From a virus, in the IMG/VR virus record IMGVR_UViG_3300002053_000023, positions 1 to 45,508 of that record: 45,508 nt of DNA; one strand, written 5' to 3'. The notes under the pieces are model-generated. The model saw only the letters and a list, made by a program, of their open reading frames with translations, searched no databases and had not been told where the DNA came from. Shown in pieces: positions 1 through 45,508 of this stretch (position 1 is the first letter of the stretch; the number at the start of each line of letters is the position of its first letter). A program made the translations under genes and the position numbers.

Positions 1-93
1 CTAATCATCCGCCACTACGTCGAGTTCTCGCTTGAGGAAGTGCCCCTAGTTGTAACCGTCACGAACTCCGAACGCTTTAACATCGTTACATGA
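1..93 (+). CDS. 3' end of a truncated hypothetical gene
   Basis: The window opens inside a reading frame that runs in frame 1 from the first base to a TGA at 91-93, giving 30 C-terminal residues ending SERFNIVT. A strong ribosome-binding site for the next gene follows at once, the same tight packing as downstream, which supports this being the tail of a real gene. Function unknown. Confidence 0.5.
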   Translation, partial: LIIRHYVEFSLEEVPLVVTVTNSERFNIVT

Positions 94-106
94 AAGGAGG
101 TGAACC

Positions 107-3140: not shown

Positions 3141-3404
3141 ATGGCCGAACAAGACCTATTAGAAGCCATCGCAGCCGAGGTCGACGAAATGTCAGAGGAA
3201 GACCTCGAAGCTGAAGCCAAGAAGATTCTTGCCCAACAGGAAAAAAGGCGCGAATACTCCAAGAACAGAGTAATGTCTCCTGAAGCCAAGGAGAAGCAGA
3301 AAGCCTACCGCCAGAAAATCTACCAGAAGAACCGCCAAATCTTGGCTAGGTACAAGGAACTGCACCCTGAAGAGTTCGAAGGCGAACCCGAAGAAGAAGA
3401 TTAG
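3141..3404 (+). CDS. Hypothetical charged helical protein (87 aa)
   Basis: ATG at 3141 after AAAAGGAGGTTAAGCT. The protein is almost all charged helix: acidic first third (EVDEMSEEDLEAEAKKI), Lys/Arg/Gln-rich middle (EKQKAYRQKIYQKNRQIL) and an acidic tail (EGEPEEED). A coiled coil or intrinsically disordered nucleic-acid binder is plausible. It ends just before a structured non-coding stretch. Confidence 0.75.
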   Translation: MAEQDLLEAIAAEVDEMSEEDLEAEAKKILAQQEKRREYSKNRVMSPEAKEKQKAYRQKIYQKNRQILARYKELHPEEFEGEPEEED

Positions 3405-3528: not shown

Positions 3529-3693
3529 ATGAAAGAAGAGTTCATAAAGCGCGGGGAGAGCATCCGTATCTCAACGGACCATGCAACTATTACTATCCAC
3601 TCAAGGAACCAACACACCAGCGTATACGTCTATTCCAGACGCAAGACCAAGCTCTTTCTGCGTGTGAATGACTCTGGTATTAGAATCGCTTAA
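3529..3693 (+). CDS. Hypothetical small protein (54 aa)
   Basis: ATG at 3529 lies just after the structured leader, without a clear ribosome-binding site, and the frame runs to TAA at 3691. The product has regular beta-strand alternation (ESIRISTDHATITIHSR, TSVYVYSRRKTKLFLRV), which argues that the frame is real. It ends 13 bases before queC. If the leader is regulatory, this would be its first target. Function unknown. Confidence 0.55.
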   Translation: MKEEFIKRGESIRISTDHATITIHSRNQHTSVYVYSRRKTKLFLRVNDSGIRIA

Positions 3694-3706
3694 AAAGGAG
3701 GTTCAA

Positions 3707-4417
3707 ATGTATAGTACACACCCCCCAGCGCCTCACGACCACACACTCGTCCTCCTGTCCGGAGGCCTTGACTCCGCAGTAACGCTAGCGCTCGCGCGCC
3801 AGAACACCTGCTCGAAGCTGTTCACCATCTCGTTCAACTATAAACAACGCCACTCTAAAGAGCTCCTCTTAGCTGATGAACTCTCCATACACTATGAAAC
3901 TATCCACATGGAACTACCAATGCCAGAACTCGACTTCTTCACCGGCTTGAAAGCCACCGAAGAGGTTACACCGGGTACGAGGTTCCCCCGCGGTTTTGAA
4001 AACCTACCGGGGGTCGACAGACCGGACATCCCCTTGCTCCCACGAACCTGGAAGCCCGGACGTAACATAATGTTCTTCGCCTTCGCAGGCGCGTACGCCT
4101 GGTGGGAAGGCATTAACTTGCTAGCTTGCGGAGTTCACCAAGAAGACCAGCCAGGCTACCCAGACTGCTCCGAACTCTTTCTCCGGGACATGGAAATGAC
4201 ACTGCAGAGCGGTCTCTCGTACACAATTAACATCTGGGCTCCCCTACTCAACATGAATAAAGCGGAAATCGTAACCCTAGGCTCCAAACTTGGAGTTCCC
4301 TTTAAGCTCACGTGGTCATGCTACGCTGGAGAAGACAAACCTTGCCGCAAGTGCGATGCTTGTATCCGGCGTGAGCGCGCATTCGCAACCGCGGGCATAA
4401 AGGACCCGGTGAAATGA
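3707..4417 (+). CDS. queC: QueC, 7-cyano-7-deazaguanine (preQ0) synthase
   Basis: QueC converts 7-carboxy-7-deazaguanine to preQ0 using ammonia and ATP. The 236 residues show the PP-loop ATP-binding motif SGGLDS at residues 18-23, the FNYKQRH segment, the GRN motif in WKPGRNIMFF, the GVHQEDQPGYPDC segment that stands for the usual GvnaeDysGYPDC, and a C-terminal zinc site CYAGEDKPCRKCDACIRR with four cysteines. Start at ATG 3707 after AAAAAGGAGGTTCAA. Length is normal for the family, so it should be active. With folE, queD, queE and dpdA elsewhere in the window it completes a DNA-modification pathway. It overlaps the nuclease gene by 4 bases. Confidence 0.95.
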   Translation: MYSTHPPAPHDHTLVLLSGGLDSAVTLALARQNTCSKLFTISFNYKQRHSKELLLADELSIHYETIHMELPMPELDFFTGLKATEEVTPGTRFPRGFENLPGVDRPDIPLLPRTWKPGRNIMFFAFAGAYAWWEGINLLACGVHQEDQPGYPDCSELFLRDMEMTLQSGLSYTINIWAPLLNMNKAEIVTLGSKLGVPFKLTWSCYAGEDKPCRKCDACIRRERAFATAGIKDPVK

Positions 4418-6815: not shown

Positions 6816-7202
6816 ATGCCTAAACTAGTTAAAGTCGACTGGAAAGAAGTCGCAAAGCAAGAACTCATCCCAGAAGGGAAGGTTGCCGCTCGACTCGACA
6901 AAATCGAGGAACGGGAAGGCAAGGAAGAGCCTCACAACCCCTACTGGAACTTTGAGTTCACTGTTATCGCGCCCGAAGAGGTTGTTGGGCGTAAGGTATG
7001 GGATGTATTTATGCTCGATACCAAGTCCTTGTGGAAGTTGCGGAACTTCTGTCAATGCGTAGGCATTGCACTCGAAGGCACTCGCGACATCGACACCGAC
7101 GAACTCACTGGCCAAGAGGTCGGTCTTGTAATCGGCCACGAAACCTACGAGGGTAGAGAGCGGAACAGAGTCAAAGGATACTTCGAGTACAAGGTGGAAT
7201 GA
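6816..7202 (+). CDS. DUF669 family protein, probable ssDNA-binding partner
   Basis: 128 residues. The pattern NPYWNFEFTVI, VVGRKVWDVFML, SLWKLRNFCQCVGI, IDTDELTGQEVGLVI, YEGRERNRVKGYFEY is the DUF669 signature: an OB-like beta domain found in phages beside Sak4-type ATPases. Expected to bind single-stranded DNA in recombination or replication, though direct functional data for the family are limited. ATG at 6816 behind AAAGGAGGTTTTAC. Its stop overlaps the queE start by 4 bases, so it heads the queE-folE-HPRT operon. Confidence 0.8.
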   Translation: MPKLVKVDWKEVAKQELIPEGKVAARLDKIEEREGKEEPHNPYWNFEFTVIAPEEVVGRKVWDVFMLDTKSLWKLRNFCQCVGIALEGTRDIDTDELTGQEVGLVIGHETYEGRERNRVKGYFEYKVE

Positions 7203-7774
7203 AGTACCCCATCGTCGAGGTATTCGACTCTATTCAAGGAGAAGGTCTGTATACAGGAGCGCCCGTCAACTTCGTAAGGTTGGCGGGCTGCAACCTCTCC
7301 TGTGCCTTCTGTGACACCGACAAAGAAGCTAAGGAAGAACTCACTCCCAAGGAAATCCTGGCGCGCCTGAACCCAAGCATCAGGATAGTTGTACTCACGG
7401 GCGGGGAACCTACAACCCACTCCCTTACCGAGCTCATCAGTGCATTACACAAGGAGAGCTACCTCATTCACCTCGAGACGAATGGTACACAGCCGCTACC
7501 GAGCGGACTTGACTGGACCAGCGTCTCCCCTAAACCCGAAGAGTTCCCAAGGCCATCCTCGCCCCTCTTCAACGAAGCGAAGTGGCTTATTCCGGCCTGG
7601 GCATATGAGGATATCAAGTGGGACCTAGCATCGCTGCACTTCCTGCAGCCGGTGAACTACGAGAAGACGCTCAACATGGGAAACGTGAAGCGTTGTGTTT
7701 GGCTCCTCAAGAACAAGCCGCGCCCGAACCTTCGCCTTAGCATTCAACTACATAAAGTGATTGGAGTAAGGTAA
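7199..7774 (+). CDS. queE: QueE, 7-carboxy-7-deazaguanine synthase (radical SAM)
   Basis: QueE turns 6-carboxy-tetrahydropterin into 7-carboxy-7-deazaguanine. The 191-residue protein starts with the family signature VFDSIQGEG, has the radical-SAM cysteines C31, C35, C38 (CNLSCAFCD; CX3CX2C), TGGEPT for SAM binding, ETNGT and SVSPKP, and FLQPV near the end. Length is in the normal range of compact QueE enzymes. ATG at 7199 overlaps the DUF669 stop. Together with queC, queD and folE it gives a full preQ0 pathway in one phage. Confidence 0.95.
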   Translation: MKYPIVEVFDSIQGEGLYTGAPVNFVRLAGCNLSCAFCDTDKEAKEELTPKEILARLNPSIRIVVLTGGEPTTHSLTELISALHKESYLIHLETNGTQPLPSGLDWTSVSPKPEEFPRPSSPLFNEAKWLIPAWAYEDIKWDLASLHFLQPVNYEKTLNMGNVKRCVWLLKNKPRPNLRLSIQLHKVIGVR

Positions 7775-9266: not shown

Positions 9267-9456
9267 AATCGTAATATGCCCTTACTGCCGGAGGAACACT
9301 AACTTTGTCGAGGGGGACGCCCTACCCAAGTTCTGTTTTCACTGCAGGAAGCTCCTCCCACAGAAGTTCTGCAAGAAGTGTGGGCGAGGCATCTTGCCAG
9401 ACGATATAAACTTTTGTACCAACTGTGGAGCGAAAATTGAAACCACCACTGTGTGA
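9259..9456 (+). CDS. Double zinc-ribbon miniprotein (65 aa)
   Basis: Two zinc ribbons in 65 residues: CPYC with CFHC (residues 6-26) and CKKCG with CTNCG (near residues 36-58). Such double zinc ribbons usually mediate protein or nucleic-acid contacts. The gene overlaps the UDG-polymerase start by 20 bases, so the two are translationally linked, which hints at a polymerase accessory role. ATG at 9259; ribosome-binding site AAGGAG lies in the preceding gene. Confidence 0.8.
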   Translation: MAEIVICPYCRRNTNFVEGDALPKFCFHCRKLLPQKFCKKCGRGILPDDINFCTNCGAKIETTTV

Positions 9457-11647
9457 GGGTTGCCCCTTACAGGGAGAAGGATATGCCGAAGGTGAAGGAC
9501 CCGAAAACGCTACTATACTTTTACTTGGAGAGGCCCTCGGAGCGGAGGAAGCATCTAAAGGAAGACCCTTCGTTGGGGGCGCCGGAAGAGTTCTTAACTT
9601 CCTGCTTCAGAAGGCTGGCTTACGCCGGAGCGAGCTCTACATTACGAACGTTGTACGCTGCAGACCGCCTGGCAATCGCACTCCGACTGAAACAGAGATA
9701 CAAGAATGTTGCCGTAGGCATAAGCTGGGGGAGCTCCTCCAGGAGTTCAACCTCGTGGTCCTACTCGGGAATTCCGCCCTTCTTGCGGTTACTGGTAGGA
9801 CTGGCATTACACGCTGGAGGGGTTCTATTTTTCTTCAAGGAAAGGAAGACCGAGAGCTTTCTACGCACGGAGTCAAAGTACTACCCACAATTCATCCTGC
9901 AGCGATTATGCGGCAGCAGGACATGTTTCCTGTTGTGGTCGCTGACCTCCAACGAGCCGCCACTGAAGCTATCTCGCCTGAATACACACCGCCTAAACAA
10001 GATTATGTTCTAGAAGGAAACGTAGGACACATTCAAGGTTTCGGGGGCAGCCCTTTTACATTCGACGTGGAAACTTCACACCTAGAACCGAACCCGATGA
10101 GCATCACGCTACTCGGGCTCTCGGACGCTTCTGGTACGGCTGTTGTAATAGACAACCCGCGGGGCGCTCTAGAACTCGAAGCCCTACGAAAGGTCTTTTC
10201 CTCTCCGGTTACGAAGATAGCGCACAACATAATGTTCGATGTGCGCCATTTGAGGGCAAACGGAATTCCTGTAGTGCCGCCCTGGTTTGACACAATGATA
10301 GCTCACCACCTTGTCCTTAGTGATGTACCAAACGACTTAGGATTCGTCTCTTCGTTGTACACGCGAGTGCCTTACTGGAAGCACCTCGCAAAGACGAAAC
10401 CTAAGTGGTACAACGCTACGGACACGGATGTGGCCTTTCGTATATACGAGACCCTGAAGTACGAACTAGAGCTCAACGACCTAACTCGGGTCTTCGATAC
10501 CTCCATGAAAGTACTACCTGTCTTCGAGAAGATGCGCTCTACAGGGGTCCGCCTCAATCGCAAGCTTCAGCTCAAGTGGAAGATAGCCCTCGAGAGGAAA
10601 ATTTCTGAGTTAGAGAAGGCTCTGGTTGGGGGTATAGGAGACGTCACTTTCAATTGGCGCTCTCACCCACAGCTCTCGAAGCTACTCTACGAGAAGTTGA
10701 AGCTGCCGCGGATTTACTCTCGGTATTCGCAAAGCGTCACCACCAATGAAGAGGCGCTTGCAGAGCTTGAAGAGCTCACAGGTTCCAAGGTTGTAAAGAC
10801 GATTCGGCAACTACGGAAACTGAGCAAGCTCTCCTCTACCTACTTTTCCCCGCCTAGCACGGAGCGGGTTCATTCAGAGTACACACTTCACATAGCGGCT
10901 AACGGCCGCTCCTCTTCCCGAGACCCTAATTTGCAAAACGTGCCTAAGGGACCCGCCCGTGCTATCTACATCCCAGAAGACGGTAAGGTCTTCGTAGCGG
11001 CGGACTACAATCAAATCGAGTTGAGGGCGGCTGCAGTGATGTCGCAGGAAGCGGGGCTTCTCAAAGCCTTCGAGAAAGGAGAAGACATTCACACATATAC
11101 GGCTTCGCAGGTTTTCAACGTACGCATGTCCGAGGTCACTGAACACCAACGCCACCGCGCGAAGATGTCTGTCTACGGTATAGGTTATGGTCGTGGAGCA
11201 CGCTCCATGGCTCGAGAGTTCGGTTGGTCAGAGGCTGAGGCTCAACGATTCATCGACAGGTACTTCGAGAGGTTTGCTAAGATTAAGCTCTGGAGGCAGG
11301 ACCTTATAGCTGACGCTGAAAGGAATGGCTATCTAGTAAATCCTTTTGGCCGAAGGCGCTACTTCTTCGGCCAGAACATCGCCCCTAAAGTCTACAATTT
11401 TGTTCCCAGCTCAATAGCCGCTGACGTCCTATTCGAGTCGCTGGTCCTCCTAGACGGACAGTGCCCCAAGGACACTCGCCTCGTCCTTCAGATTCACGAC
11501 GACATAGTAGCTGAAACGCCTGTTGGCCAAGAGAAAGAGACTTCAGAGTGGCTCAAAGACATAATGCAACGTCCCATTGATGTACTTGACGGTTATTCTT
11601 TCCCCGTCGAGGTGCGCGTCGGTAAAACGTGGGAGGAACTGAAATGA
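9437..11647 (+). CDS. Uracil-DNA glycosylase - family A DNA polymerase fusion
   Basis: 736 residues in three parts. Residues 1-180 form a family 4 uracil-DNA glycosylase: cysteines 6, 9, 75 and 91 have the family's Fe-S spacing, with GEALG at 31-35, GRPFVGGAGRVLNFLL and TIHPAAIMR. Residues about 200-370 are a 3'-5' exonuclease (FDVETS, HNIMFDVRHLR, FDTMIAHH). Residues about 380-736 are PolA: motif A ADYNQIELR, motif B RAKMSVYGIGYG with Tyr at the position that governs sugar discrimination, PFGRRRYF, and motif C QIHDD. Start TTG 9437, 6 bases after GGAG; GTG 9425 lacks a site. It should copy phage DNA while removing uracil. Confidence 0.9.
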   Translation: MKPPLCEGCPLQGEGYAEGEGPENATILLLGEALGAEEASKGRPFVGGAGRVLNFLLQKAGLRRSELYITNVVRCRPPGNRTPTETEIQECCRRHKLGELLQEFNLVVLLGNSALLAVTGRTGITRWRGSIFLQGKEDRELSTHGVKVLPTIHPAAIMRQQDMFPVVVADLQRAATEAISPEYTPPKQDYVLEGNVGHIQGFGGSPFTFDVETSHLEPNPMSITLLGLSDASGTAVVIDNPRGALELEALRKVFSSPVTKIAHNIMFDVRHLRANGIPVVPPWFDTMIAHHLVLSDVPNDLGFVSSLYTRVPYWKHLAKTKPKWYNATDTDVAFRIYETLKYELELNDLTRVFDTSMKVLPVFEKMRSTGVRLNRKLQLKWKIALERKISELEKALVGGIGDVTFNWRSHPQLSKLLYEKLKLPRIYSRYSQSVTTNEEALAELEELTGSKVVKTIRQLRKLSKLSSTYFSPPSTERVHSEYTLHIAANGRSSSRDPNLQNVPKGPARAIYIPEDGKVFVAADYNQIELRAAAVMSQEAGLLKAFEKGEDIHTYTASQVFNVRMSEVTEHQRHRAKMSVYGIGYGRGARSMAREFGWSEAEAQRFIDRYFERFAKIKLWRQDLIADAERNGYLVNPFGRRRYFFGQNIAPKVYNFVPSSIAADVLFESLVLLDGQCPKDTRLVLQIHDDIVAETPVGQEKETSEWLKDIMQRPIDVLDGYSFPVEVRVGKTWEELK

Positions 11648-38215: not shown

Positions 38216-38608
38216 TTATTCCTCCTCTTCGTCTTCTTCTTTGATAATTATTTTAAAGTCCTTGTGGTGCTTTCCGAGCTTGCGTTTGATTTTCTCCTCT
38301 TCGGTCCTGTAGTTCCTCTTAATCGCTCGCAGTCTCCTGTCCTTGCGCTCCTGAATGGTTGCGTCGTATCTCTGAGCGTCCTTTTCGGAGATTCTTGCTA
38401 GACCAAGGTTACCTACAGCGATGAGGCCATCAGCCCTTACATGCTTCTCGAGGATTGTCCCTTTAATCTCGGGGTCCTCTTTGCGCACGAAGTCGTAACC
38501 ACGGACTTTCTTGTCTGTGACATTGGCAGAATCCAGTCGCACGAAACGGTAGCGAACTCCTTTCTGCTCTTTGATTTGTGAAGTAAGAATCTGTAAAGCT
38601 CCTGGCAT
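38216..38608 (-). CDS. Hypothetical basic/acidic head-region protein (130 aa)
   Basis: ATG 38608 is 6 bases after AGGAGG (a GTG lies 3 bases earlier). N-terminal strands (VRYRFVRLDSANV), middle LEKHVRADGLIAVGNLGLARI, then a very basic helix (RKDRRLRAIKRNYRTEEEKI) and an acidic end EEDEEEE. Charged-tail proteins here often assist assembly; not recognised. Confidence 0.65.
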   Translation of the reverse strand: MPGALQILTSQIKEQKGVRYRFVRLDSANVTDKKVRGYDFVRKEDPEIKGTILEKHVRADGLIAVGNLGLARISEKDAQRYDATIQERKDRRLRAIKRNYRTEEEKIKRKLGKHHKDFKIIIKEEDEEEE

Positions 38609-39402
38609 CACTTTCCTCCTTCTTCTTCCGCTCTAGCCGCGTCTATAGGCTTCTGAAACTTAGCATACTCCTCTTCAGTTATCCCCATACGCTTCGCCCA
38701 CAACTTCTGTTCCTCCGTTAGGGTAGCCTTTCCCGCGGGAGCGCTCCCTGTTGCGGAGGGTCCAGGCACTGGAGGAGCCGGCGATGGAGGTGCAGGAGTT
38801 CCTTCAGCCTCTGCTTTCGCAAAGCGGTACGCGAAGTCCCACCCATACTCAGGATTGAACTTGTACTCGGGGAGCAAGCTAGCATAGATTTGCTTGATAC
38901 GCGGCTCGAACTGTTTAAAGTCAGGCCTGATAGACTTTGTATACTCTAACAACATACCACTAAGTCCATCAAGCACAGGCTTGTTCCTAGCGTCGACGAT
39001 AGACAGGACGGCCTGAGCTTGCTTCTCGTCTAAGTGGTCTAGTGGGTTGAAAGGTTTCTCTGCTGGCTTCGCCACTTCAGCTTCTTTAGCTTCGAAATAG
39101 GCACGCCACTGAGCGTTTTCCTGTTGCGTCTTCGTCAACTCAGAGTCGGTGACATCTATATGTGTCAGGACCTCTGACAGGGTCTTACCCCTGAACTTCT
39201 TAGGAACCTTTTCCCCGTCCAGCTTCACAGCCAAGGGGTCCGGAGGCTCCTTTCCTGGTTCAGCCTTTGCGGGCTCAACCTTTCCAGGCTCGGTCTTTCC
39301 CGGTTCTACCTTACCTGGTTCTGTTTTTCCTGGTTCTGTTTTTCCAGGAGTTCCACCCTCTCCAGGTGCCGACTTAGTCGGTTCTACCAAAGGTTCAGGC
39401 AT
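38608..39402 (-). CDS. Scaffolding protein candidate (264 aa)
   Basis: Acidic, helical, low in aromatic residues. After a Pro/Gly/Lys/Glu repeat tract (residues 19-53) come LSEVLTHIDVTDSELTKTQQ, a charged helical core (HLDEKQAQAVLSIVDARNK), YEWDFAYRFAKAEAE-like stretch and a C-terminal basic-acidic helix (EEQKLWAKRMGITEEEYAKF). Composition and position between portal and major capsid genes are those of an internal scaffold protein. Stop overlaps the next gene start. Confidence 0.7.
   Translation of the reverse strand: MPEPLVEPTKSAPGEGGTPGKTEPGKTEPGKVEPGKTEPGKVEPAKAEPGKEPPDPLAVKLDGEKVPKKFRGKTLSEVLTHIDVTDSELTKTQQENAQWRAYFEAKEAEVAKPAEKPFNPLDHLDEKQAQAVLSIVDARNKPVLDGLSGMLLEYTKSIRPDFKQFEPRIKQIYASLLPEYKFNPEYGWDFAYRFAKAEAEGTPAPPSPAPPVPGPSATGSAPAGKATLTEEQKLWAKRMGITEEEYAKFQKPIDAARAEEEGGK
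39244..39348 (-). repeat. PGKTE/PGKVE pentapeptide repeat tract in scaffold gene
   Basis: Seven consecutive five-codon units encoding variants of PGKTE (PGKTE x3, PGKVE x2, PAKAE, PGKEP) in the N-terminus of the scaffold protein. The 15-base units are similar at DNA level, so slippage or recombination could change their number. Likely a flexible linker. Confidence 0.85.
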
Positions 39403-39403
39403 G

Positions 39404-39637
39404 TTATTCCTCCTCTTCTTCTAATTCTTCGCGGAAAACTCTTGGATAATCTAAGAGCACCGCAATCTTTTTGTACTCAATCCGTAGAGGGTCTATTTCC
39501 TCTAAAGGATTGTTAAGTATCTGGTTAAATAGACCTTCCTGTTGGGTCTTCAACCTCATCCTTATCTTGACCCAACAGGGATGGGTCACAAACTCGTCTA
39601 TATCGCTCTTCACTAACGTAGGTTCTTCTTTATCCAA
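39404..39637 (-). CDS. Hypothetical protein between portal and scaffold (77 aa)
   Basis: Acidic ends and a basic centre: EEPTLVKSDIDEFVTHPCW, VKIRMRLKTQQEGLFNQIL, PLEEIDPLRIEYKKI, then EELEEEEE. Similar short genes follow the portal gene in other phages. It overlaps the portal stop by 8 bases. No family recognised. Confidence 0.7.
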   Translation of the reverse strand: MDKEEPTLVKSDIDEFVTHPCWVKIRMRLKTQQEGLFNQILNNPLEEIDPLRIEYKKIAVLLDYPRVFREELEEEEE

Positions 39638-41399
39638 CTGGAACCTCCTCTTCAGGCGGCACTACCGGTGGAGGCTCTGCTCCCCCAGTAAGGCTTTCTG
39701 CTACGCCTGTATATTCTTCAGGAGTCATCTCTCCGTAGGTTTCAAGGACCTTCTTTACTTTCTCTCCGGAAGCCTTGAGTATCTTCAGGACGACCTGCTG
39801 CATTGCTGGGTCGGGCATCTGTGGTAGGAGACCTGTAAGATTTACGACTCCCTGGTAGTAACGTTCTAAGAGTTGGAAGGTCGCCATAGCATCGTTCTTT
39901 TCTACTTCCTTGTTCTGAGCTACATGCGACATAGAACTCTTAACACTCAGAGCGAGGTACGGAGGCATCGCAGGCATCTTCAGGAACTCCTCTACCCAGC
40001 GACCGTCCTCCCCCATAATCATGTAAGGCACTCGGCGGTTCATGCGAGAGTGTATCATGCGCAGGTGGAAGTCACCAAAGTCGTCCATTTGCTCCCGCAC
40101 GTCCCGAATCGTAAGGTCGAAACGCCTTTGACCTTCCTGGATGAGAGCAAGTGTGCCGGTAGCAGTTGCTCGGCCACCAACGATAGGAGATTCCCTACCG
40201 AGCGCGTAGTCACTTATCCCAGCTCTTCGCTCCCCGAGTTCTTGTATAAGGCGTATGAATGCGGGGTTAAGATTAAAAGGCTGCCCCATAGCCATCGGCA
40301 TCAAGTCGGTCTCAGGGTTGTCTAGCTGGAAGATTTTAGCGGGGTAAATCTTCGTCTTGGCAGTTATATTAGAAGACTTGCTCGCTTTGAAGCACTGCAT
40401 AGTAGCAATCTTAAAGTTGTCAACAAGAGTGTTATACAGTGCATACAACGCCTCGTCGTAAGGCTGTGTCATCTCCATAACACCGAGCCCGTTAATACCG
40501 TAGTCGCGCGGGCCGTACCTAAAAAGAGTCAAAGCCCACCTCGGATACGTATCGTCTTCGAAACGGAGGACTTCCTTCGTGTCAAGATGCACCGTAGCGA
40601 TATAACGGCGATACTCGCCGTTACCTTTCAGGTCGTACCAGAGGTAGAACTCGTTGCCTAAGATGCGGTTCACCTCGTCGGGTTCTTCGCCCGCACGCTC
40701 TTGGGCTTCTCGCTGTTTCTCGTCTACAGGTTGCTCAGCCTTGAGGAGCTTGTTGGACACCTCGTAATTGCCTTTGGCTTTCTCTACCTCGAGCATCATC
40801 CTAGTCCAGCGCATCTTCCGTGTCCACCAGGGAAGGTCACGAAGCTCGCTGTACCCAGCAGGGTATACAAGGTCGCGCATCGGTAGAGCCCGTACAACTA
40901 TCCCGTCCACTACAGGAATGTTCATCGAGCGACTCCAGAAGAGGTAACGGGTAGTCATTCGTTCCGTTTGCGTCACCCAGGGAGTAAGCATAGCTCCTGT
41001 ACCTAGCCTAGTGCACTCGAAGAGGACCTTCCTCATCTCTTTATAGAGGTTCATCTCTGTCTTGACCTTGAACTCTATTAAGTTCTCTACCTTTCGTGTT
41101 ACGTTGGACCAGTCGGAGTTCCGTGTGGGCTCTAGAGAGAAAGTGGGTTTGTACGCGAAAGTTGTATTCAAGAGCCTTGCGGTGACTGCGTCCGTAAACG
41201 TCGCTCCCATAAGAATCGGGAAGTTAGACATCCAAGAAGCCTTTCGGGACGGAACCTCTCCATAGTACAAGTTATTCAGAGTCTCGTATTTCTTCATCAT
41301 GGGGTCGTACACATGTGTCGTGGCCGCAGAGAGCTCGACGTCGAGGTAGTCCAGGAGTTTCTTCTTCTGGTCTTCCGTTAGTCTAATAGCCTCACCCAA
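39630..41399 (-). CDS. Portal protein
   Basis: 589 residues with the podovirus-type portal pattern: early helices (DQKKKLLDYLDVELSAATTH, YETLNNLYYGE), FPILMGATFTDAVTARLL, YKEMRKVLFECTRLGTGAML, FRYGPRDYGINGLGVMEMTQ, YDEALYALYNTLVDNFKIAT, the wing/clip region and AGISDYALGRESPIVGGRATATGTLALIQEG, followed by FDLTIRDVREQMDDFGDF and a long C-terminal helix. Forms the dodecameric ring for DNA packaging. Length (589) suits short-tailed phages (T7 536, P22 725). Acidic, Pro-rich C-terminus. Overlaps the upstream gene by 8 bases. Confidence 0.85.
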   Translation of the reverse strand: MGEAIRLTEDQKKKLLDYLDVELSAATTHVYDPMMKKYETLNNLYYGEVPSRKASWMSNFPILMGATFTDAVTARLLNTTFAYKPTFSLEPTRNSDWSNVTRKVENLIEFKVKTEMNLYKEMRKVLFECTRLGTGAMLTPWVTQTERMTTRYLFWSRSMNIPVVDGIVVRALPMRDLVYPAGYSELRDLPWWTRKMRWTRMMLEVEKAKGNYEVSNKLLKAEQPVDEKQREAQERAGEEPDEVNRILGNEFYLWYDLKGNGEYRRYIATVHLDTKEVLRFEDDTYPRWALTLFRYGPRDYGINGLGVMEMTQPYDEALYALYNTLVDNFKIATMQCFKASKSSNITAKTKIYPAKIFQLDNPETDLMPMAMGQPFNLNPAFIRLIQELGERRAGISDYALGRESPIVGGRATATGTLALIQEGQRRFDLTIRDVREQMDDFGDFHLRMIHSRMNRRVPYMIMGEDGRWVEEFLKMPAMPPYLALSVKSSMSHVAQNKEVEKNDAMATFQLLERYYQGVVNLTGLLPQMPDPAMQQVVLKILKASGEKVKKVLETYGEMTPEEYTGVAESLTGGAEPPPVVPPEEEVPVG

Positions 41400-41649
41400 T
41401 GTACCTTCCCCATAGCTTCTTCGGCATCCTGTTGAAGCCGTAGAGCTCTTTAAATCTAGGCGCAGACAGGTTCTGATGCATCCGGCTAACCCTGGCTTTC
41501 TGTTTTAGATTTAACCTCGGAGCAAACCTCTGAGGATTCTGGTGGTACCCTTCTGGTAGGTACCCTAAAGCGCTCCTGTAAGCGCTATGCCCCCCAATCC
41601 TAGCGACTCTTGCCGCAGACTTGGGAGGCAACTTCGCTCTCTTAGCCAT
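41392..41649 (-). CDS. Hypothetical basic protein (85 aa)
   Basis: Very basic (AKRAKLPPKSAARVARIGGH at the start; NLKQKARVSRMHQNLSAPRF in the middle), ending KKLWGRYIG. Probably nucleic-acid-associated. ATG 41649 overlaps the 45-residue gene. Lies between terminase and portal genes. Function unknown. Confidence 0.7.
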   Translation of the reverse strand: MAKRAKLPPKSAARVARIGGHSAYRSALGYLPEGYHQNPQRFAPRLNLKQKARVSRMHQNLSAPRFKELYGFNRMPKKLWGRYIG

Positions 41650-41779
41650 GTGTCTTCTCCCTTTGCTTTAGTTTGTAAATAACAATCTCAGCGTTGCGTA
41701 CGCTGGTGCAGCGCTGCTTTACCTTCCACCTACCACCTTTCTTGTGCATAACATTCTTTCCTATACGTTTGTAAGGCAT
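41642..41779 (-). CDS. Basic miniprotein between terminase and portal (45 aa)
   Basis: ATG 41779 overlaps the terminase TAA (TAATG) and follows GGGAGGATATA, so the two are coupled. Product: PYKRIGKNVMHKKGGRWKVK, then QRCTSVRNAEIVIYKLKQRE. Basic start, one strand-like region. Short genes of this kind between terL and portal are common in podovirus-like genomes; the role is unknown. Confidence 0.7.
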   Translation of the reverse strand: MPYKRIGKNVMHKKGGRWKVKQRCTSVRNAEIVIYKLKQREKTHG

Positions 41780-43284
41780 TATATCCTCCCCATACCCACG
41801 AGAGCCGCTTCGTGCTCACGGTCAGCCTCGAGCTCCTCTCGGTACTCTTCTTTTGAGCGAGGCTCTTTCATTTGGTGCATGTTCCACGCCCAACAGTCAC
41901 CCATGTCACGAAAGCGCCCTGTGTCCCAAGTTAGAAATTCCTGATTGAAGTGAGCCATAAACCTGTGTGAAAAGGCCTTGCCCTCGGCGAAGAAGCGATA
42001 ACCGCCCCTGATACGCGTTTCCTTGGAGGTTTTAGTATCATGGGGAAGGAGGTTCAGGAAGGGTCTATCCGGTTCGTTCTTCCAAATGAGGTCAGCCAGC
42101 GGCTGCAAGGCCTTCTGATATCCGAAAGACTCGATTCCGAACTTTATGGGGTGCCACTTCTTGTGTAGAGCAAGCATAGCTCTCAAGAACTCCTCAGGAG
42201 AGCTCGGAGCCGCGTACTCATCGAGGTGGTACCGACGACCTGAATAGTCAATTCCGTCGATAGAGATTGCGTTTCTCGAGGTAAGCTTCGTCGAGGCTGT
42301 CGTGGATAGGGTGTGTCTAGGGTCTCCTGCAGCGTATATATTCAAGTGGCCTATAGGCACTTCCTCTTCCTTGTATGCCTTAGGCAGGATGAGAGAGTTA
42401 TCACCCCGCTTATACATCTGGAGCCACTCGGGTTTGTTCTCCATGATAGAGGGGTCCGAGGGGTTGTTCATATACTGAGTCGCAAACAGATAGGGGTCCT
42501 GCTCTTGCATTCGGAGTAAGAGTTTTAGAGGCCACTTCTCCGGAAAGAGCGACCGCTTACCTTCCGGAGTGTCAACGATAGCTTGCTTGTAATACACGTG
42601 AAATTCAGGGTGATTCTCAAGGATATGACAAGCAAGGTCGATGTTCGACCAGTGGTTCATAACGACGATGACAGTTCGCTCCTCGATAGGAGGCCTCAAA
42701 CAACCTTTGATTCGTTGTTCGAACCGCGAAATCAGCTTGGCCATGAGCTCGCTGCTCTCGTATGTTTCCTCGTCGACAAGGTCGTCAAAAACCATGTAAT
42801 CGTAATGCCGGGAAGTCACCTTCGTGTTCCAACCAGCAGTTTCCCACGTGGCTTCCGCACGGTCGTTTACGCGTGGAAGGCAGATTTCTTCTTTATTCCA
42901 GCGTTTTGAGAGTTCAGGGCGCAGCTCTGGAAACCACTGGCGAACGAAGGGACGTTTCTCGAAAGCAGTGCGAATAACACCCACAAAGTGCTCCGAGTTC
43001 GTTGCGGTGTTAGCTACTATGAGTCCAGTCTCTTCGGGGTTGCGGAGGCCTCGCCATGTAGGATACGAGATAGTGAAGATTGAGGACTTGAAGTGATTCC
43101 GTGGGACGATGACGAGTAACCAGTGATAACGCTCTGCGAGCTCGGCGATGTGGCACATTTCGTAATGTAAATGGGGTGTCAAGTCGTTGAAGCCAAGGAG
43201 AGCGGTAGCCGTGAAGAAGACCGAGCTCAACGCCCTCTGGCGTAGCTCAGTCGGAAGGCTGCTTGCTTGGTTTGAGAGCTGGAT
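41779..43284 (-). CDS. Terminase large subunit, probable AUC start
   Basis: Packages DNA: ATPase plus nuclease. ATPase motifs: VPRNHFKSSI in place of the usual GxGK(S/T) P-loop (residues about 60-68), and DYMVFDDLVDEE as Walker B. Nuclease: AAGDPRH, KFGIESFGYQ and MGDCWAWN give the Asp/Glu/Asp set. The first conventional start, TTG 43230, has no ribosome-binding site, whereas AAAGGAGGT at about 43291-43299 lies 6 bases before an in-frame ATC at 43282-43284, and the added 18 residues (QLSNQASSLPTELRQRAL) look real. I therefore start at AUC. 501 residues; overlaps terS by 38 bases. Confidence 0.85.
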   Translation of the reverse strand: MQLSNQASSLPTELRQRALSSVFFTATALLGFNDLTPHLHYEMCHIAELAERYHWLLVIVPRNHFKSSIFTISYPTWRGLRNPEETGLIVANTATNSEHFVGVIRTAFEKRPFVRQWFPELRPELSKRWNKEEICLPRVNDRAEATWETAGWNTKVTSRHYDYMVFDDLVDEETYESSELMAKLISRFEQRIKGCLRPPIEERTVIVVMNHWSNIDLACHILENHPEFHVYYKQAIVDTPEGKRSLFPEKWPLKLLLRMQEQDPYLFATQYMNNPSDPSIMENKPEWLQMYKRGDNSLILPKAYKEEEVPIGHLNIYAAGDPRHTLSTTASTKLTSRNAISIDGIDYSGRRYHLDEYAAPSSPEEFLRAMLALHKKWHPIKFGIESFGYQKALQPLADLIWKNEPDRPFLNLLPHDTKTSKETRIRGGYRFFAEGKAFSHRFMAHFNQEFLTWDTGRFRDMGDCWAWNMHQMKEPRSKEEYREELEADREHEAALVGMGRI

Positions 43285-43786
43285 GTTCTACCTCCTTTGC
43301 TTTCTTTGCTAGTTGTAACTCTAGGTTCTCAAGGCGTTGACGCCCTTCTTTCTCCTTCTGCAAGGCCGTAGCTATTACGTCGGCTTCTATCGGACTGATA
43401 ATGACCTGGATTGCCGGCTTGGTTTCTGGAGCTTTCGAATAACCCGCCCGGTCTAGGAAGTCCTGTGCGACGTCCTTTTGGATTCCCCCGGAAGCGGCGT
43501 GCTCCAAGAGGGTTTTCAGGCGGTTAAGAGAGGGCCCCGCCATATCGACAATTTCCTGGCGGATGTTCCTGACGTCACTTTCGATTGCTTTGTCGACACC
43601 TTCGTATGTTTTGTCTTTGAGTTCCTGAAGCACTTTCCTAAAGTCCGGCCGCCTAAGCGCCTGCTTTAGCGTAGAGAGGTTCAGGTTCATAGCTTGCGCG
43701 ATTTCTTCGGGTTGCTGATGAAGGAGTAACCGCCTAGCGATTTCGTTGTACGTTAGGTCCAGTACTACATTACTAGGTCTACGCAT
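43247..43786 (-). CDS. Terminase small subunit
   Basis: 179 residues. HTH-like N-terminus (LTYNEIARRLLLHQQPEEIAQAMNLNLSTLKQALRRPDF, split by eye over residues 9-48), a central helical oligomerisation region (YEGVDKAIESDVRNIRQEIV, PSLNRLKTLLEHAASGG) and a charged helical tail. Recognises the packaging site. First gene of the late operon: ATG 43786 with GAGGTGAA upstream, 30 bases from the -10 box of the leftward promoter. Its end carries the ribosome-binding site of the large subunit. Confidence 0.8.
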   Translation of the reverse strand: MRRPSNVVLDLTYNEIARRLLLHQQPEEIAQAMNLNLSTLKQALRRPDFRKVLQELKDKTYEGVDKAIESDVRNIRQEIVDMAGPSLNRLKTLLEHAASGGIQKDVAQDFLDRAGYSKAPETKPAIQVIISPIEADVIATALQKEKEGRQRLENLELQLAKKAKEVEHPALKPSKQPSD

Positions 43787-43806
43787 TTCACCTCGTAGGC
43801 GTTCTT

Positions 43807-43846
43807 GTTGCTTTTATTATACTATGGAAACGAGGGGGAAAGCAAC
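43807..43846. promoter_or_regulatory. Operator-like inverted repeat spanning the late promoter
   Basis: GTTGCTTT (43807-43814) and AAAGCAAC (43839-43846) are perfect 8-bp inverted arms, one over the -35 box and the other at the expected start. Arms 32 bases apart centre to centre, about three helical turns, suit a dimeric or looping repressor. Confidence 0.5.
43816..43845 (-). promoter_or_regulatory. Leftward late promoter, sigma70 type
   Basis: On the minus strand: TTGCTT (43840-43845), 18-base spacer, TATAAT (43816-43821). The expected start near 43808 is 22 bases before the small-terminase ATG. It is the only clear promoter for the 25-kb late operon. It lacks the GTGTCAC element of the early promoters, suggesting separate control. 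Confidence 0.8.
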
Positions 43847-43876
43847 GGCCAGTTTGTAAAACGTCTTTCACTGGCC
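43847..43876. promoter_or_regulatory. Second inverted repeat upstream of late promoter
   Basis: GGCCAGT (43847-43853) and ACTGGCC (43870-43876) form a perfect 7-bp inverted repeat directly upstream of the -35 box. A regulator-binding site or hairpin; it adjoins the repeat over the promoter. Confidence 0.45.
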
Positions 43877-44024
43877 CTCCAGATTTTCTGGCGCGTTTGT
43901 GGCTTTCATGGGCGCCCGCCGATTTTTGGTTCGATTGGTGGAGAGCCTAATGGAGGAGTCTGCCTTGAAGAAATCCATGGTATAGTGAGTTAATATATAA
44001 GACATATAGATGCGATCTGAATAC
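43877..44024. other. Divergent intergenic region
   Basis: Together with the promoter and operators this is a 289-base gap between the leftward late operon and the rightward small-gene cluster. It holds GGGCGCCC (a palindrome near 43910), then A+T-rich DNA near 43990-44010. For the rightward genes only a weak signal is seen: an extended -10 TGGTATAGT at 43978-43986 without a good -35 box. The frame at 43805-43993 has no ribosome-binding site and is not called. Confidence 0.5.
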
Positions 44025-44042
44025 GCAAACCGGGTGGTTTGC
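44025..44042 (+). promoter_or_regulatory. Leader hairpin of the gene at 44076
   Basis: GCAAACC - GGGT - GGTTTGC: perfect 7-bp stem, 4-base loop, ending 16 bases before AAAGGAGGTGAA. First of the series of leader hairpins in this cluster. Confidence 0.65.
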
Positions 44043-44075
44043 TAAATCATATCAGACAAAGGAGGTGAATAAGAC

Positions 44076-44267
44076 ATGGCAAAAAGCTCACTTTTCGAAC
44101 AAATCGAGAAATGCTCAACCATCGATGAATTATCAAAACTCGCGGATGTGGAGACATTGAAGAAAGCCTACAAATCCTATCTGAAATCTAAAGCTGCTCA
44201 TTCAGCGTACAATGCTCGAAAGACGAAGTTGTATAAGTTAGCGCTAGAAGCTGGACTTGATAAGTAA
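44076..44267 (+). CDS. Small basic paralogue 1 (63 aa)
   Basis: ATG 44076 behind AAAGGAGGTGAATAAGAC. The product aligns without gaps to the proteins at 44377 and 45354: pattern I-x-K-(A/C)-(T/S)-(T/S)-(F/I)-x-E-L, then x-K-x6-L-K-x-A..., a (H)-x2-Y-N-x-R motif and an AxELGLDK-like end (LALEAGLDK here). Helical, basic, no membrane span. No known family; the repeated presence suggests a family that diversifies in this phage. Confidence 0.8.
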   Translation: MAKSSLFEQIEKCSTIDELSKLADVETLKKAYKSYLKSKAAHSAYNARKTKLYKLALEAGLDK

Positions 44268-44284
44268 TCGAGGTTAAGTAGGTA

Positions 44285-44361
44285 GAGGGGAGGCCGTCCT
44301 CCCCTCCCCCGCAAGCACTGGGCACATGCCCATTCACATAGCGTATTCATACGCAACGCTA
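44285..44361 (+). promoter_or_regulatory. Three leader hairpins before the gene at 44377
   Basis: GAGGGGAGG - CCGT - CCTCCCCTC (44285-44306), a 9-bp GC-rich stem with no T-run, could end the previous message; GGGCACATGCCC (44320-44331) is a small palindrome; TAGCGT/ACGCTA (44339-44361) overlaps the alternative GCGTA-TTCA-TACGC (44341-44354). The last one ends directly at AAAGGAGGTGAA. Confidence 0.6.
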
Positions 44362-44376
44362 AAAGGAGGTGAACAC

Positions 44377-44574
44377 ATGAAACCGTTGAACATCAACGCA
44401 ATCATGAAAGCCACGAGCTTTGACGAGCTTCGCAAGCACATCGACCTCGAACGAACCAAGCAAGCCATCAAATCCGCAGAGCAAAGCAGAATCTCCCATG
44501 TCAAGTACAATACCAGACGCAATCTGCTTGTGAAGAAAGCCATCGAACTCGGGCTCGACAAAGACCTGAGCTAA
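44377..44574 (+). CDS. Small basic paralogue 2 (65 aa)
   Basis: ATG 44377 after AAAAGGAGGTGAACAC; the frame back to 44326 crosses the leader. Homologous to the proteins at 44076 and 45354: IMKATSFDELRKHIDLER, then AIKSAEQSRISHVKYNTRRN and KKAIELGLDK. Conserved HxxYNxR motif. All-helical, basic. Function unknown. Confidence 0.85.
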   Translation: MKPLNINAIMKATSFDELRKHIDLERTKQAIKSAEQSRISHVKYNTRRNLLVKKAIELGLDKDLS

Positions 44575-44593
44575 ACTCGGGCCGCCCGCCAGC

Positions 44594-44612
44594 GGAGGAC
44601 TGCACATCCTCC
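44594..44612 (+). promoter_or_regulatory. Leader hairpin of the gene at 44645
   Basis: GGAGGA (44594-44599) pairs with TCCTCC (44607-44612) across 7 bases. The right arm is itself complementary to the real ribosome-binding site AGGAGGT at 44633-44639, so an alternative fold that hides the site is possible. Confidence 0.5.
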
Positions 44613-44644
44613 AACGAGAGGCGAACACACACAGGAGGTAACAA

Positions 44645-44839
44645 ATGTATTATCCCCATCCCCCCGGCCCGGCCGCCCGACTGGCCTGGCAATTAGTCTC
44701 GGAGTACACACTCACGAGCGAGCACCCACCGGCGTCACAGGCGGAGAGGCTCGTAGAGCACTTCGTCTTGGATTTTCTGACACTTGGGTGCGACCATGAA
44801 AAAGAGCCAACCTTTGCTCTTTATGATGATGACGACTAG
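44645..44839 (+). CDS. Hypothetical acidic protein (64 aa)
   Basis: ATG 44645 after AGGAGGTAACAA. N-terminal YYPHPPGPAARLAWQLVSEY then LTSEHPPASQAERLVEHFVL and DFLTLGCDHEKEP, ending YDDDD. Not a member of the paralogue family of its neighbours. Function unknown. Confidence 0.7.
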   Translation: MYYPHPPGPAARLAWQLVSEYTLTSEHPPASQAERLVEHFVLDFLTLGCDHEKEPTFALYDDDD

Positions 44840-45016
44840 TAATAAAAACAGAGCCAGTCAAAAGCCAAAGTAGATTTTGAAGGGATTAGAAATTGGAATC
44901 CTTACATAAGTGATAAGACTTATATTCTTTCTCAATTTAGTTACTAGTTATTAAGTATCATCATCCAAATGAGCAAAGGGTGGCCAAATTTACTGGTGAG
45001 GCCCCCTAAACCTAAA
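44840..45016. other. A+T-rich intergenic stretch
   Basis: No convincing reading frame. Contains an imperfect inverted repeat: ATGATGATGACGACTAGTAA near 44821-44842 resembles the reverse complement of 44938-44966 (ACTAGTTATTAAGTATCATC). No consensus promoter was found; several A+T-rich tracts could serve as weak -10 boxes. Confidence 0.4.
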
Positions 45017-45030
45017 GACGCTGAAGCGTC
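45017..45030 (+). promoter_or_regulatory. Leader hairpin directly before the ribosome-binding site at 45031
   Basis: GACGCT - GA - AGCGTC: 6-bp perfect palindrome-like stem immediately followed by AAGGAGGTGA. Same arrangement as at 44361 and 45337. Confidence 0.6.
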
Positions 45031-45045
45031 AAGGAGGTGAAACAC

Positions 45046-45222
45046 ATGAATAACTGGGAAAGGCTAGGCAACTTCTTCTACAAGACGTCCTACTTCTTCA
45101 ACGCTCTTTCCGGCTATTGCTGGGGTGACATCCGCTTCCGGGACATCTGGAAGACATACAAGTTCCTCCACAGGCTCAACACTGGCTTCTTCGACTCCCT
45201 GAAAGACGTAAAGCCGGAGTAA
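45046..45222 (+). CDS. Hypothetical aromatic-rich small protein (58 aa)
   Basis: ATG 45046, AAGGAGGTGAAACAC upstream. Phe/Tyr/Trp-rich, e.g. WERLGNFFYKTSYFFNAL and FRDIWKTYKFLHRL, likely two amphipathic helices. Could be membrane-associated. Not related to the paralogue family. Function unknown. Confidence 0.75.
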   Translation: MNNWERLGNFFYKTSYFFNALSGYCWGDIRFRDIWKTYKFLHRLNTGFFDSLKDVKPE

Positions 45223-45240
45223 ACTTTCGCGATTCGAACC

Positions 45241-45285
45241 AAGTGTAAATTTTTAGTTGCCATATGTAGTCAATTTCTATATAAT
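45241..45285 (+). promoter_or_regulatory. Sigma70-type promoter with AAGTGT upstream element
   Basis: TTGCCA (45257-45262), 17-base spacer, TATAAT (45280-45285), followed by AATAAAAG. AAGTGT at 45241-45246 starts 16 bases before the -35 box, the same offset as AAGTGT in the promoter at 2708. Drives the gene at 45354. Confidence 0.85.
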
Positions 45286-45323
45286 AAAAGTAGAATGATT
45301 ACAAAGGCAAAGAACAAATTCAG

Positions 45324-45337
45324 GCAGGCTTGCCTGC
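45324..45337 (+). promoter_or_regulatory. Leader hairpin directly before the ribosome-binding site at 45338
   Basis: GCAGGC - TT - GCCTGC: 6-bp stem immediately followed by AAGGAGGTGATTAAGC, like the hairpin at 45017-45030. Confidence 0.65.
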
Positions 45338-45353
45338 AAGGAGGTGATTAAGC

Positions 45354-45508
45354 ATGTCGCCAGTCAACAGACAACTGAACATGGACGCAATCGAGAAAGC
45401 TACCACATTCGCCGAACTCCAGAAGCACGTAACCCTCGAAGAGATGAAGGCCGCCCTCCGGCAGCGCGAAACCCAGCGCATCGCTCATAAACGCTACACC
45501 CAGAAGAA
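45354..45508 (+). CDS. Small basic paralogue 3 (5' part, cut by window end)
   Basis: ATG 45354; 51 residues are visible before the window ends. Matches the proteins at 44076 and 44377: MDAIEKATTFAELQKHVTLE, then MKAALRQRETQRIAHKRYTQ, so the HxxY motif is kept while the following N is replaced by T. Has its own strong promoter (45257). The rest lies outside. Confidence 0.85.
   Translation, partial: MSPVNRQLNMDAIEKATTFAELQKHVTLEEMKAALRQRETQRIAHKRYTQK

Follow-up and report, generated by a model that had tools for sequence, protein, structure and literature searches.

Cassettes of small or orphan early genes are a common and well-known kind of locus in phages. The host-takeover module of Bacillus phage SPO1 is a compact cluster of small early genes with strong expression signals, which sits in the terminal redundancy and most of whose genes are not known to be paralogues. 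The N protein of phage lambda is a small, basic and helical early protein, and boxB hairpins are present in the lambda early leaders. In the N-terminal oligomerisation domain of H-NS, a long helix comes after two short ones. The locus analysed here is an array of three small paralogous genes at the right end of the window (by window we mean the whole DNA stretch analysed, all 45,508 bases of an IMG/VR virus record). It resembles the SPO1 module (Stewart et al. 1998, cited in PMC12282133) in that small genes occupy the promoter-proximal part of an inferred early operon and have strong ribosome-binding sites; a strong sigma-70 promoter was found at the third paralogue only, and searching the phage records with members of the family gave no match to SPO1.

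The three paralogues lie on the plus strand: p1 (44076..44267; 63 aa, pI 9.4), p2 (44377..44574; 65 aa, pI 10.0; the copy with a structure model) and p3 (45354..45508), which is cut by the end of the window, so that only the first 51 of its 74 amino acids are present and the frame is open at the 3' end. The full-length p3 was completed on L002 (positions 6978-7202). This contig (IMGVR_UViG_3300002052_000065) is a sibling of the window record, comes from site 1 of the sulfate-methane transition zone in sediment of the White Oak River estuary (PMC4411801), and is 99.986% identical to window positions 38377-45508 over 7,132 bases. All three reading frames exist, and their homology, proposed by an earlier sequence-only reading together with the truncation of p3, was confirmed by pairwise BLASTP (p2/p3, 43% over 67 aa, E = 8e-17; p1/p2, 46% over 54 aa, E = 2e-14; p1/p3, 35% over 40 aa, E = 3e-6; each value corresponds to a single comparison). 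The same reading described the proteins as ungapped homologues with a common AxELGLDK stretch: the alignment is indeed ungapped over roughly the first 50 residues, but in p3 the 'GLDK' is absent and 5 additional residues are inserted near the C-terminus. Two unrelated short genes are interspersed with the copies, as had been described: a small acidic gene (44645..44839, +; 64 aa) and gene 45046 (45046..45222, +; 58 aa). Acidic FAxxDDDD-like stretches were observed by eye at the end of small reading frames of the array region, or close to it, in the window (44810-44839) and on the minus strand of two relatives (L006, about 60-90; L017, about 100-150).

The array constitutes the first rightward genes at a divergence point, opposite terS-terL. 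The rightward set begins at 44.0 kb, passes the end of the record and resumes at position 1, reaching about 18 kb. Among its products are QueC, a PD-(D/E)XK nuclease, an AAA_24 ATPase, DNA polymerase A and a primase, the replication genes being downstream of the array, and from this gene content we infer that the rightward operon is early. The leftward genes occupy the region between 43.8 and 18.5 kb and include terS (small terminase; 43247..43786, -), which heads the divergent leftward late operon and served as the landmark of the array in relatives, terL (large terminase; 41779..43230, -), a portal/head-tail adaptor and a tail spike. The suggestion that the array may continue was not borne out, as the sequence past 45508, present on L002, contains no further close copy. 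On this contig p3 is followed by the gene of a Cys-rich protein of 61 aa, whose cysteines occur in pairs, and by a 77-aa gene whose end corresponds to the first bases of the window: window positions 1-104 and L002 7620-7723 are identical over 104 bases, and diverge directly after a shared AAAGGAGGTGAA. L002 thus runs from the right end of the window into its left end, bridging a gap of 487 bases, indicating a record that almost closes into a circle. The split after the shared sequence may reflect a gene replacement at the ribosome-binding site, or a variant or assembly difference. The window gene at the left end seemingly has no ATG, GTG or TTG start near its Shine-Dalgarno; ATT is possible.

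The Shine-Dalgarno sequences of p1 (44061..44068, +), p2 (44364..44371, +) and p3 (45339..45346, +) are all AGGAGGTG. These three genes and gene 45046 tied for the best anti-SD energy (-15.2) and share rank 1 in a list of 61 window genes picked partly by hand, in agreement with the strong ribosome-binding sites claimed previously. The strong promoters claimed at the same time were found for p3 only, whose sigma-70-type promoter (TTGCCA-17-TATAAT; 45257..45285, +) matches 11 of the 12 consensus positions; the best sigma-70 score in the regions upstream of p1 and p2 was 7/12, and scoring of the window sequence revealed no recognisable sigma-70 promoter for either gene. Promoters of the form TTG[AC]TT-17-TATAAT, or near it, precede early genes in L017, L019/L050, L038, L039 and L040, which points to a bacterial host with a sigma-70-type polymerase. 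The early, high expression put forward for the array fits its position at the operon head, its top-ranked Shine-Dalgarno sequences and the promoter type common to the relatives; the first two of these would entail early and abundant synthesis.

TerL and DNA polymerase served as queries against viral contigs to gather relatives, whose TerL proteins are 51-84% identical where measured (63% in L019, which came from the polymerase search). The search for the family started from a profile built on the five members identified first and was then iterated; this starting profile already detected the family in the relatives reaching far enough past terS. Altogether, 23 distinct members are encoded on 12 uncultured viral contigs: three each in the window, L039 and L040; two each in L006, L014, L015, L017, L019 and L038; and one each in L012, L033 and L037 (one L038 member is identical to that of L033 and was counted once). 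Nine of the 12 contigs therefore carry at least two copies; among the single-copy contigs, L012 and L037 end inside or just after the copy, and L033 extends only 2.9 kb past terS. The terS gene adjoins the array on the opposite strand in every contig tested for it. The profile search found no member in two contigs with remote TerL (L042, L043), nor in phage ctLwi270 (MW202554; Manatee Spring, podovirus-like), which is similar in size and in its divergent early/late layout and whose TerL and DNA polymerase are 29% and 30% identical to those of the window. The MW202554 TerL (L003 9804-12341) is annotated in two pieces, with a possible intein-like insertion. In the closest relative, a GIY-YIG homing-endonuclease-like gene (L006 1266-1715, +) is located between terS and the array.

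Pairwise dN/dS was 0-0.39 where measurable, indicating purifying selection on constrained proteins. The tree unites the two L019 copies with strong support, the sole same-genome pair at the strict mark; in the L006 pair, the L015 pair and p2/p3 of the window the copies are neighbours supported moderately or weakly, and L039 and L040 have orthologous slots in common. The topology suggests separate duplications in different lineages, within the limited support that such short proteins allow, and it agrees with the repeated duplication proposed from the three window copies.

The proteins matched no known family, as the sequence-only reading had anticipated: there was no reliable match (above the curated cut-off where one exists) in Pfam, PHROGs, NCBIfam or PADLOC, and neither a sequence search of PDB nor three fold searches against PDB/BFVD gave anything meaningful. 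Likewise, tblastn of four family members and the possibly related 3141-type protein against 50,697 phage records gave no credible match, and two short-pattern scans of 84,980 cellular genomes gave no relative, distant ones being able to escape such scans. Two PHROGs of unknown function, phrog_15871 and phrog_17852, and Pfam DUF7609 each drew matches from one or two members (best E 0.0047, 0.0048 and 0.02, respectively), which are too weak and not family-wide. Similarities to the Retron Ec67 N-terminus (E = 0.7), designed helical repeats (E = 0.13) and ribosomal L34e (E = 0.85) were attributed to chance, and H-NS was rejected (hhalign against E. coli H-NS, probability 0.9%, 18 columns). The family thus appears to be undescribed in the databases searched, and the relatives in the clade are themselves multi-copy.

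The AlphaFold2 model, whose input comprised 24 rows (23 distinct, one L014 member being repeated), had a mean pLDDT of 89.7 and a pTM of 0.55, and predicts two short helices (residues 6-11 and 15-19) followed by one of 34 residues (24-57). The likeness to the H-NS N-terminal domain and to phage H-NS antagonists lies in this predicted helix topology alone, and no PDB fold match was obtained. The alignment shows a motif, R/K-x-[YAS]-H-K-x(4)-K/R, in the middle of the long helix: position 38 is always R/K, position 41 is always H, and position 47 is K/R in all but one member; positions 15, 18, 31 and 55 are hydrophobic in all members. Twenty of the 23 distinct members are net positive, unlike the strongly acidic Ocr-type DNA-mimic antirestriction proteins; the other three, one each in L014, L039 and L040, are slightly negative.

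Retention and repeated duplication across the clade mark a selected early function. The reading we tentatively favour, with a probability of about 0.4, is that of a clade-specific, repeatedly duplicated early protein which binds nucleic acid, or its machinery, and aids host takeover; the takeover part, which the sequence-only reading had offered as an example alongside anti-defence, is suggested by position, expression signals and charge. On this reading, the basic face of the long helix (R/K-x-x-H-K-x(4)-K/R) would bind nucleic acid, or the target might be host machinery bound to nucleic acid (RNA polymerase, nucleoid or ribosome); the copies would redirect the host early in infection, and their repeated duplication and divergence may provide dosage or coverage of different targets. 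Simple nucleic-acid binding is weakened by the three slightly negative members. Anti-defence genes, too, are typically early, small, confined to one clade, fast-diverging and repeatedly duplicated; if the paralogues belong to this class, each copy would neutralise a host immune effector (e.g. an R-M, CRISPR or abortive infection component) by protein-protein binding and duplication would follow the host arms race. We regard this as a serious candidate, albeit a rather unlikely one: the basic charge differs from that of DNA mimics, and the helix motif is kept down to 51% TerL identity, which suggests a conserved and not a variable target. The lack of a PADLOC or other family match also speaks against anti-defence, although the PADLOC negative is weak, because PADLOC holds mostly defence and not anti-defence proteins. 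If either host takeover or anti-defence were true, the copies would be natural variants of one small inhibitor, of use for finding its host target; early orphan gene cassettes being a familiar kind of system, the surprise would be tempered.

The leaders of the array genes contain hairpins, those of p1 (GCAAACC-GGGT-GGTTTGC; 44025..44042, +), p2 (GCGTA-TTCA-TACGC; 44341..44354, +), p3 (CAGGCA-GGCT-TGCCTG; 45321..45336, +) and gene 45046 (GACGC-TGAA-GCGTC; 45017..45030, +; directly 5' of the Shine-Dalgarno). The proteins, small, mostly basic and helical, might accordingly resemble lambda N and act as self-regulators which bind leader hairpins or nascent early RNA, in autoregulation or antitermination. 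Hairpins just before the Shine-Dalgarno are more consistent in family genes (mean z -1.99 versus -0.90 in the others, p = 0.0008), and a loop CTTGCGAGTTCT is common to the leaders of L015 1502-, L015 922-, L033 1348- and L038 7903-, where it precedes family genes only; a base-pair count over these four leaders gave no support, its misregistered alignment making it uninformative either way. We nevertheless consider self-regulation unlikely, as leader hairpins with z < -1.5 also occur in 61 of 201 other genes, a genome-wide frequency which ruled out the hairpin as a family-unique mark, the leaders within the window have no common loop, and an Rfam search gave no match. With respect to lambda N, no sequence match was found, the arginine-rich N-terminal motif was not seen, and no boxA or boxB was demonstrated. 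The more specific proposal of new small RNA-binding regulators, whose R/K-x-x-H-K face would read pre-Shine-Dalgarno hairpins that duplicate and diverge together with the copies, is improbable; if true, the paralogues would control their own and neighbouring early genes. The conserved adjacency to terS-terL might also suggest a structural or packaging accessory protein, which is very unlikely given that the array is on the opposite strand, in an operon separate from terS and from the recognised virion genes, and that no reliable virion family match was found. Extreme sequence divergence and variable copy number would be expected of near-neutral early accessory reading frames with no dedicated common biochemical role, but the purifying selection, and the retention of the family in relatives with enough flanking sequence, make this explanation slightly less probable still.

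In several relatives, genes for small CxxC...[CH]xxC (zinc-ribbon-like) proteins adjoin the paralogues or lie in their vicinity (L002 7280-7465, +; L014 2099-2437, - and 2732-2911, -; L015 976-1275, -; L019 1986-2657, +; L038 7085-7345, - and 7959-8204, -), and these proteins are possibly a conserved partner. The protein at 3141 (3141..3404, +; 87 aa) is a possible fourth, distant relative, and not a further copy, since it has mainly the C-terminal helix motif in common with the family and is acidic overall. Its match to the first profile was weak (E = 0.0024); the value of 1e-8 reached after iteration is not independent, because the iteration takes in the 3141 protein itself. Counterparts about 50% identical to this protein are present in L019, L038 and L040.

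Two further observations concern the rightward genes of the window. In the product of the gene at 9425-11647 (+), an N-terminal uracil-DNA glycosylase domain of family 4 (Pfam UDG, 4.5e-25; NCBIfam UDG_fam4, 9e-37) is joined to DNA polymerase A, and some phages match this fusion across nearly its full length. The genes at 3668-4417 (+) and 7199-7774 (+) are QueC and QueE-like, respectively, which suggests a putative 7-deazaguanine (preQ0-type) DNA modification.
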